The translations under genes were made by a program, and so were the position numbers. A stretch of 64,000 bases of DNA, from positions 1 through 64,000 of the forward strand of contig JAGYKB010000009.1 of assembly GCA_018401885.1 (NCBI GenBank). Direction: 5' to 3'. Shown one piece after another: positions 32,133-33,956 of the stretch. Below the pieces are notes generated by a model, which saw nothing but the letters and a program-made list of their open reading frames with translations, was not told where the DNA came from and did not search any database. The first letter of the stretch is position 1, and every line of letters starts with the position of its first letter. The DNA is from Gammaproteobacteria bacterium (lineage in GTDB: Bacteria; Pseudomonadota; Gammaproteobacteria; Pseudomonadales; Pseudohongiellaceae).

Positions 32133-33956
32133 TTAGTCAGCACCACGATCAGTGTTAATGACTTTCCAGTCCGCCGCGCCGAAAAACATTTCGTCCATGC
32201 TCTGCAGACCCCAAGGAACTGAACGTGAAGGATCCGGATTCATTTTGTTCTGGGCAGAATTATCGAACGCGCCAACCGCGGTGATCTGTGTGCCAGCAGG
32301 CATAAACTTTGGTTCGACGAGCGTATAAGCAAGCTGCCAGTTGTAATTGTAGTTGGCAATATTGATTAACTCTTCTTTCGTGCCATCGGGATAAGTGGCG
32401 TAAAAGCGCATACGCTTGCCGCGGAAATGCATATGCGGCGTTAACGAGTACAGGCGAGAATCCTCGTCAATAGTAATCGTCTGCTGCATTTCGTAGTCGG
32501 GGTCGAACGGAGGAATGTTCACCCACGTCGGAGTGAAGTGACAAGCACATTCGCCGCTCATCCTCTCTTCTGGCACGAAGCCCTTTGGATAAAACCATAC
32601 ACCAATCCGGCTCTCGTCGACCGTGGCCTTACCCGTAGTAGTAAAGTGCATCTGCATCGCTATCTTGGACCCAGCTTGCAGTAGCCCACCTGTATTAGGT
32701 GGCTCTTCGCGCGGCGATTGACCCGGAATGTAGGGCGCAATGCCAGGGCGGTCAGGGTCACCGCCAAGCAGCGAGCCGCCGCTAGTCGCGCCCGGGGGAA
32801 TTATGCTGTGCAGAGTGTGGTGAAGAACCGTTCGGTCTCCCGGAATGTACTGACTTGCGCGAACCCAGCGATCCTCCTCAATATCGATTTCAACTAGTGC
32901 GTTGTAGTAGTCGAGGATGCCAGTCGCAGGGACTTCCTGTGGCGGTATCTCAATGATGTAGTCCGGCTCGCCAAAGGCCCACTCTGACGTTGGCCAAGTG
33001 AGTTGCGCGAGCGGGTCGGCTTCAGCGGTCTCGCCGTCGTAGGGGGCACCCGCACCTATCCAATGAATAAGTTTCTGTGTGTCACTCTCTGCTAACACCA
33101 TGTCGTTAATAAACTCACCGATATGCGAATCGATCTGTCCAGGCGGCATGCGCTTTGTGAGCAACACTTCGCGAATCATGGGCGACCATCCCAACACCAT
33201 CGTGTAACTGTCCATCGCAAACGGCGCGATGCCCCCTTCACGGTGGCAGCTGGCACAGTTCTCGGCAATGATAGGTGCGATGTCATTAACATAGGACGGC
33301 GTTGAAGCAGTATGCGCCTCGCGGGCGGCGTAGCGTATTTCGACGCCCTGTCGCTGCGTTGTCGAACCGACTGCCGCCGCTGCTGCTGTGATGTCGCCAC
33401 CCGTGTCTAGCTGGGCGAGTAGCTGTTGAACCTCGGCCAGGACCTGCCTGCCGGCACCGCGCGCGATAATCGAAAATCGCTTGGGATCGAAAACCAGTAC
33501 TTCACCGCTTGCGGTAAGGGTCAACGCCTCGCCTACGAGTTGGGTGTCATCCATTAAAACAGGAATGTCTAAGCCCTCCGCACGCATGGCCTCGGCGATA
33601 TCATCTCGGTTGTGCTTCGCCTGCGAGTCGATAAGGAAAAACGCGAACGATTCACCGGCGCTATCGCGTAACTCGGCGTAGGTGTCGAGCAGTGATGACA
33701 AACCCTTGTCGTCCTCGGCATAGCTGAGTAACACTACGGCCTTGTGGTCGTCGTACCAACTCATCTGATGGAAATAGCCCTCGGCATCAAGGAGCGAAAA
33801 ATCCCCTATACGCTGCGACGCCTCGGCTGCGGTCGCAGTAGGCGAGGCCAGCATGGTTAGCACTGCCAGCGCTGTCACTGACGCCACTGATGCCAATGAC
33901 GCCAATGAAGAGCGCCAAAAGGCGGTCGCTTTTCTTGATTCCAGAAACAGTCTCAT
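32133..33956 (-). CDS. Secreted redoxin / cytochrome c / copper type II monooxygenase fusion
   Basis: Read in order: signal peptide (about 1-44, cleavage near ATAAEA); thioredoxin-like domain (about 48-185) lacking the CXXC pair; a single haem c motif CASCH (234-238); and a C-terminal region like the copper domains of peptidylglycine hydroxylating and dopamine monooxygenases. Equivalents of the copper ligands are visible: His379/His380 (LHHTLH), His437 (MQMHFTT), His508/His510 (PHMHFRG) and Met590 in DEMFFG. A periplasmic copper hydroxylase fed electrons by its own haem is a fair inference; the substrate is unknown. Confidence 0.85.
   Translation of the reverse strand: MRLFLESRKATAFWRSSLASLASVASVTALAVLTMLASPTATAAEASQRIGDFSLLDAEGYFHQMSWYDDHKAVVLLSYAEDDKGLSSLLDTYAELRDSAGESFAFFLIDSQAKHNRDDIAEAMRAEGLDIPVLMDDTQLVGEALTLTASGEVLVFDPKRFSIIARGAGRQVLAEVQQLLAQLDTGGDITAAAAAVGSTTQRQGVEIRYAAREAHTASTPSYVNDIAPIIAENCASCHREGGIAPFAMDSYTMVLGWSPMIREVLLTKRMPPGQIDSHIGEFINDMVLAESDTQKLIHWIGAGAPYDGETAEADPLAQLTWPTSEWAFGEPDYIIEIPPQEVPATGILDYYNALVEIDIEEDRWVRASQYIPGDRTVLHHTLHSIIPPGATSGGSLLGGDPDRPGIAPYIPGQSPREEPPNTGGLLQAGSKIAMQMHFTTTGKATVDESRIGVWFYPKGFVPEERMSGECACHFTPTWVNIPPFDPDYEMQQTITIDEDSRLYSLTPHMHFRGKRMRFYATYPDGTKEELINIANYNYNWQLAYTLVEPKFMPAGTQITAVGAFDNSAQNKMNPDPSRSVPWGLQSMDEMFFGAADWKVINTDRGAD

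Follow-up and report, generated by a model that had tools for sequence, protein, structure and literature searches.

The window analysed here is a stretch of 64,000 nucleotides (positions 1 to 64,000 of contig JAGYKB010000009.1, assembly GCA_018401885.1) from a gammaproteobacterium of the Pseudohongiellaceae. The first-pass annotation had placed at positions 32133-33956 an open reading frame joining a thioredoxin-like domain without its CXXC, a single CXXCH haem site and a copper-binding region. The reading frame was recovered exactly, on the minus strand and with 607 amino acids, and the descriptions of the first two parts were borne out: a thioredoxin-like fold was matched, residues 1-233 hold no cysteine, and the sole CXXC sits inside the CXXCH, a CASCH at residues 234-238. 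The features assigned to this gene are listed below, with conservation counted in an alignment of 32 family proteins and copper ligands placed through a bridge protein (L126).

32133..33956, minus strand: whole gene, encoding a redoxin-like, a haem c and a predicted PHM-type copper domain; 607 aa, ATG start, candidate for export
33825..33956, minus strand: N-terminal hydrophobic stretch, residues 1-44, candidate export signal read by eye, in a part of low model confidence
33387..33824, minus strand: thioredoxin/redoxin-like fold without cysteine, residues 45-190, from the fold match to 2ywi
33021..33308, minus strand: monohaem c-type cytochrome domain, residues 217-312, from conservation and a separate model with a weak match to PccH
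33243..33257, minus strand: CASCH, residues 234-238, predicted haem c attachment site; C234, C237 and H238 in 32/32
33147..33149, minus strand: Met270 of MPP, candidate distal haem ligand, in 32/32
32148..32993, minus strand: predicted PHM-type dicopper domain, residues 322-603, from Foldseek to 3mll and VIA to 6ala
32817..32822, minus strand: His379-His380, putative equivalents of PHM His107/His108 (CuH), from alignment via L126 and conservation
32646..32648, minus strand: His437, putative equivalent of PHM His172 (CuH), from alignment via L126 and conservation
32427..32435, minus strand: His508-Met-His510, putative equivalents of PHM His242/His244 (CuM), from alignment via L126 and conservation
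32187..32189, minus strand: Met590 of DEM, putative equivalent of PHM Met314 (CuM), from alignment via L126 and conservation

The flanking genes in the window (FemAB-like, class V aminotransferase, Lrp/AsnC, DUF898 and M48) point to no pathway. All Pfam matches of the protein fell below the curated cut-offs (Cu2_monoox_C, E 0.03; AhpC-TSA, E 0.031; CBB3, E 0.051), and NCBIfam gave no match at E <= 10. The hydrophobic N-terminus and the presence of a haem c site make it probable that the protein is exported. Its four cysteines are 234 and 237 of the haem site and 470 and 472, which could form at most a disulfide in the copper domain.

The family alignment comprised the window protein, the nine other intact genes of the same genome and 22 of the 26 loci from a scan of genome contigs; L012, L018, L023 and L025 were left out of the alignment and of all counts as fragments. 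C234, C237, H238, M270, H379, H380, H437 and M590 were identical in 32/32 and H508 and H510 were kept in 31/32; the haem site was complete in all 32 proteins and both copper sites in 31. Given this conservation, the ligand pattern is more than chance. Substitution rates were compared with six orthologs. For four of them, synonymous changes had reached saturation in most domains; with the two close orthologs, dN/dS was low in all three domains (redoxin 0.085 and 0.092, haem 0.017 and 0.044) and lowest in the copper domain (0.008 and 0.024). An AlphaFold model built with 42 sequences had a mean pLDDT of 79.3 and a pTM of 0.75, with pLDDT below 50 in loop 583-586, just before Met590, and in loop 241-246, after the haem site. 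A fold search of BFVD found no convincing match.

In the predicted model, the redoxin region aligned to 2ywi with a VIA Z of 16.5 and an rmsd of 2.6 over 160 residues, and residues 45-213 matched thioredoxin-like proteins at Z 14.5-16.5. The fold is common to the thioredoxin-like/AhpC-TSA proteins (2ywi, 3u5r SMc02350 and ResA, all within that range of Z); unlike them, the window protein has no cysteine in this domain, and neither a CXXC nor a peroxidatic cysteine, as would mark a thioredoxin or peroxiredoxin, was found in residues 1-233. EDDK stands where the relative from genome G318 has NGCP. A single cysteine is present at this position in the types encoded on contigs C2 and C17 of the same genome, as it is in the NGCP of the G318 homolog, and is missing from the window, C12 and C27 types. 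The C2 paralog (L036) scored above the AhpC-TSA cut-off (30.7 against 26 bits).

The haem domain, modelled alone, reached a pLDDT of 82.0. Its best match was PccH, a weak one (Z 5.9, rmsd 2.3, 77 residues; Foldseek E 0.33), and the cytochrome domain of hydrazine synthase alpha was found as well, also weakly. With these monohaem c-type cytochromes, to which all structural and profile matches are weak, it has in common the CXXCH and a predicted helical domain; unlike them, it is fused between the redoxin and copper domains and carries the MPP methionine 32 residues past the haem histidine. The CASCH and the candidate distal ligand, both features of c-type cytochromes, are thus present in sequence, and a CcmF gene was found in the window's genome.

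The copper domain of the predicted model matched 3mll in Foldseek (E 2.8e-10), and residues 330-603 aligned to 6ala with a VIA Z of 14.7 and an rmsd of 3.3 over 247 residues, so that the structure prediction against PHM proposed in the first-pass annotation came out in favour of the PHM fold. A family profile of the copper region found no PHM by sequence in the PDB at E <= 10; since this direct search missed PHM, the sequence link was supplied by the bridge protein L126, a haem-copper protein encoded in G155, another genome of the phylum. The window protein matched L126 at E 2e-28 (a single-pair E-value) with the ligands in register, and L126, in which both PHM Pfam domains scored above cut-off, matched rat PHM at E 2.8e-7 with HH, H, HxH and DEM in register. 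All six copper ligands were in register at both steps, and the earlier claim that equivalents of every PHM/DBM copper ligand (HH, H, HxH and the M in DEM) are retained therefore stands, with these residues near-invariant in the family. For Cu2_monoox_C (cut-off 23 bits), the window protein scored 14.2, below the cut-off, and L126 52.9; the C2 paralog scored 23.2 in the genome search and 20.6 in hmmscan. Fold, sequence bridge and conservation together support the predicted assignment of the copper domain to the PHM/DBM class.

Members of the PHM/DBM class hold two copper ions about 11 A apart and carry out ascorbate-dependent hydroxylation; animal enzymes of this type use ascorbate, and the PHM-type domain serves hormone making. 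LPMO and CDH-type copper oxygenases are wired to haem domains; the window protein resembles them in the notion that a copper oxygenase is supplied by a haem domain, and their copper domain and site are probably of another type. With PHM and DBH, the copper type II ascorbate-dependent monooxygenases, the window protein appears from alignment and model to share the catalytic-core fold and the HH, H, HxH and Met set; it differs from both in being bacterial, with a fused haem c and redoxin-like domain, and from PHM in having no equivalents of Arg240 and Tyr318. According to one report, the copper ligands of DBH (H262/H263/H333 and H412/H414/M487) form a set of this type and its core holds several disulfides, whereas the window protein has only two cysteines outside the CXXCH (PMC4846438).

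PHM numbering was derived as chain index + 44 in the printed alignment, anchored on H242, H244 and M314. On this numbering, Gln435 and Gln541 of the window protein fall on PHM Gln170 and Gln272 and are kept; Thr506 and Ala594 fall on Arg240 and Tyr318, both of which are lost, and close relatives have T, L or I at the first position and A or Q at the second. Because these replace the two PHM residues that we take to hold the carboxylate of the peptide substrate, glycine-extended peptides are unlikely substrates. An assay on such peptides would be unlikely to succeed with the window protein and would suit a group of paralogs better.

The 26 loci of the contig scan carry titles of Gammaproteobacteria, Pseudomonadales, Pseudohongiella and OM182 assemblies, and one just 'Proteobacteria'; 22 have the same redoxin-haem-copper architecture and the other four are fragments. 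The window's genome (2.62 Mb, 70 contigs) holds ten intact family genes and a broken one. Five of the intact genes include the redoxin domain (window, C12, C2, C17 and C27) and five encode haem and copper domains only (two on C5, two on C17 and one on C1), with the haem c site present in 10/10. With the window protein as query, every one of the 25 genus genomes matched, with 9-34 matches each, pieces of one gene being counted separately (E <= 1e-20), and at the same threshold there was no match in 13 genomes that represent other families of the order, the set being made up of this genus and those families. Across the phylum, three of 398 genomes matched (the organism's own, G155 and G318), and PF01082 was above cut-off in one of 299 phylum genomes (G155). 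Not every family member need be a monooxygenase, since R and S replace HxH in one paralog of the same genome; this redoxin-haem-copper gene on C17 (L038:5889-7706) keeps the CuH ligands, the Met and the haem site, and on its sequence might be a natural one-copper variant.

A conserved gene cluster surrounds the C2 type in the organism's own genome and five others:

L036:5209-19367 (own genome, C2) and L129-L134: conserved genus cluster, with a class V aminotransferase in G034 and G046

It includes CstA (identified by eye), a HupE/UreJ-type permease adjoining the C2-type paralogs, one or two secreted NHL propellers and a nuclease, together with extra copies of the family, a penicillin-amidase-type enzyme and an amidohydrolase. 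Assignments come from Pfam for the own-genome genes and from similarity for the rest, and some stretches miss some genes. The propeller was found in 22/25 genus genomes and in none of 13 genomes from outside the genus (E <= 1e-50), and in at least 18 of those 22 its distance from a family gene is some 10 kb or less. It matched rat PAL at E 1.7e-7 and TRIM-type NHL proteins better (best E 1.1e-15 and 2.1e-18), so that the reading as a putative PAL competes with the better-scoring TRIM-type NHL reading. Propeller H139 aligned to PAL residue 585, H356 was assigned to 786 from the alignment end points, and H259 was placed by motif; the PAL zinc ligands are presumably H585, H690 and H786.

Two tandem copy types beside the propeller have Arg and Tyr at PHM positions 240 and 318 (10/10 sequences), and a third copy type in the cluster has Gly and Phe (4/4). 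The class V aminotransferase at the cluster end in G034 had the glyoxylate aminotransferase BhcA as its best match (437.9 bits, below the cut-off of 650); a similar gene lies in the G046 stretch, and the own-genome stretch lacks one. A route from N-acylglycine to amide and glyoxylate is a hypothesis that may be put forward for this cluster, and it concerns the paralogs, not the window protein; the PAL-like genes of the window's genome lie on other contigs, namely C2 and, for a weak one, C11. At C2:70594-72279 of the same genome, a further family copy of this cluster is broken by several stops and is intact in relatives.

A scan of IMG/VR with the family alignment gave 239 relatives, of which the best 80 were kept. 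Two or more neighbouring family genes were found in 74 of these loci, a pairing rate that holds for those 80 only because they are the best of 239. Exactly two family genes occur in 68 loci, always on the same strand; by longest-ORF calls the two overlap in 46 of the 68, and in the others they lie up to 678 bases apart. Pairs of this kind occur among the IMG/VR loci L043-L122, for example at L088:1300-4176 and L122:1337-5020. PHROGs searches on representatives of the neighbour clusters identified the major head protein phrog_138 (E 6.7e-162), tail tube, UvsY-like, helicase and ThyX proteins and, more weakly, a baseplate/tail-fibre connector. At least one of six tested phage clusters was present in 46 of the best 80 loci; the remaining 34 have none in the DNA covered, their records being fragmentary and some possibly misassigned. 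phrog_138 was found in 7 of 22 records (one weak, E 2.7e-4) and in 0 of 14 control genomes; phrog_2 was dropped as a phage marker, being present in 11 of the 14. Many of the 80 loci are clearly T4-like phage. Two haem-copper genes searched against PHROGs had no match at E <= 0.001. The phage genes of the family are known here from IMG/VR contigs only, since tblastn of the window protein against annotated plasmid and phage records gave no match at E <= 1e-5.

The first gene of the pair is 65.0-85.5% identical to the host C17 gene (62 phage genes with at least 380 aligned residues). Gene 1 of L088 reached 84% in the window's genome and up to 76% in full-length matches elsewhere, with one 140-residue piece in G034 at 81%. 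The phage hosts are probably close to the window's organism, whose relatives these phages would infect. A FastTree phylogeny of 54 sequences and 273 columns groups gene 2 with the split copper genes (support 0.977) as sister to the window/C12 subfamily, the two together having a support of 0.998. In L114, L117 and L119-L122, gene 2 is divided between two reading frames, one of about 233 residues for the redoxin-haem part and one of about 316 for the copper part alone. A CopC-cluster gene (Pfam CopC, E 1.1e-15 on the L122 member) occurs in six loci, L113, L114 and L119-L122, five of them with a split gene 2, and comes after it in five of the six split loci. A small cytochrome c gene is present in 15 of the best 80 loci, its L122 member scoring above the Pfam cut-off. 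It may be that both phage-paired enzyme types act together. In L098:78-8189, part of a 340-kb phage record, a CHASE2-guanylate cyclase gene and curlin-like genes (identified by eye) lie beside the haem-copper pair.

We consider it fairly probable that the window protein is an exported, haem-c-wired dicopper monooxygenase of the PHM/DBM class that is fed by a cytochrome, independent of ascorbate and active on a small substrate. The data show architecture, homology, predicted fold, ligand conservation and phage pairing; from these we infer export, metals, haem, electron flow, hydroxylation, substrate class and a joint pathway. O2 and the substrate would meet at CuM (His508, His510 and Met590), and the second electron would reach it by way of CuH (His379, His380 and His437). 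In place of ascorbate, the source would be the respiratory chain or a small soluble cytochrome, with the fused haem (Cys234, Cys237, His238 and probably Met270) as the route. The haem is a plausible electron source, and this fits the context in that the redoxin-haem part is a separate gene beside the copper part in six phage loci and a small cytochrome c gene accompanies 15 of the 80. The cysteine-free redoxin-like domain may have a structural or docking role rather than that of a thiol enzyme. The substrate would probably be a small organic compound and not a glycine-extended peptide, and the second haem-copper protein, of the C17 type, may share a pathway with the window protein.

Other functions could be built on the same residues. 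Since haem c is able to accept as well as to donate electrons, the two sites might belong to a copper-haem oxidase or peroxygenase, either driven by H2O2 or passing electrons from the substrate to the haem as acceptor. According to one report, H2O2 can stand in for both O2 and reductant in PHM itself (PMC6123673). The window protein keeps the full ligand set of O2-activating enzymes, however, and we regard such a function as unlikely. It is quite unlikely that the PHM scaffold was kept for non-catalytic copper binding, storage or sensing: the CopC-cluster gene in six phage loci, the HupE/UreJ permease beside the paralogs and the paralog without HxH would suit such a role, but the haem site is whole in 32/32 proteins and both copper sites in 31/32, and the many diverged paralogs suit enzymes better, although this last is an argument and not a test.

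The PHM fold and ligands would also agree with a PHM-like action of the window protein on N-acylglycines, as would the PAL-like propeller gene adjoining the C2-type paralogs, the Arg and Tyr of its two tandem neighbours and the glyoxylate-aminotransferase-like gene in G034. The window protein and its close relatives depart from PHM at positions 240 and 318, however, and the PAL-like genes lie on contigs other than its own; we judge this activity to be very unlikely.

On a wider and more tentative view, the family may represent a respiration-driven branch of PHM/DBM, in which a genus possesses, for oxidation in the periplasm, a large set of haem-wired dicopper monooxygenases, numbering ten intact genes in the genome of the window. 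One cluster would be of PHM+PAL type for N-acylglycine-like compounds, and a second pathway would join the C17 type and the window subfamily; T4-like phages of these hosts might encode the latter, in the form of two haem-copper enzymes that are sometimes accompanied by a small cytochrome and CopC, as auxiliary metabolic genes sustaining oxidation during infection. The fusion, the implied ascorbate-free wiring, the expansion in one genus and the phage gene pair seem to be new; the type of copper chemistry is already known. Neither such a redoxin-haem-copper fusion nor such phage genes were found among the open-licence papers listed, which leaves their absence unproven, and the copper-protein table of a 2020 review places PHM and DBM under eukaryotes only (PMC7435645). 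The haem c sites stand where animals use ascorbate, and if the haem feeds the copper sites, the family would offer a genetically simple system for studying electron delivery to the two coppers of PHM/DBM. Where the phage genes are split, electron transfer can be tested between separate proteins, and the phage loci suggest that phages profit from having the reaction during infection. The window protein and the phage genes together hint at a new way to oxidise compounds outside the cell.

A further gene type accompanies some members of the family. It encodes an unassigned, probably secreted protein of about 310-350 aa (c36), for which no match was found in Pfam at E <= 0.1 (two members) or in NCBIfam (one member), and it adjoins four haem-copper-only genes, at L037:7513-8442, L038:4595-5530, L041:9282-10331 and L042:10010-10969.
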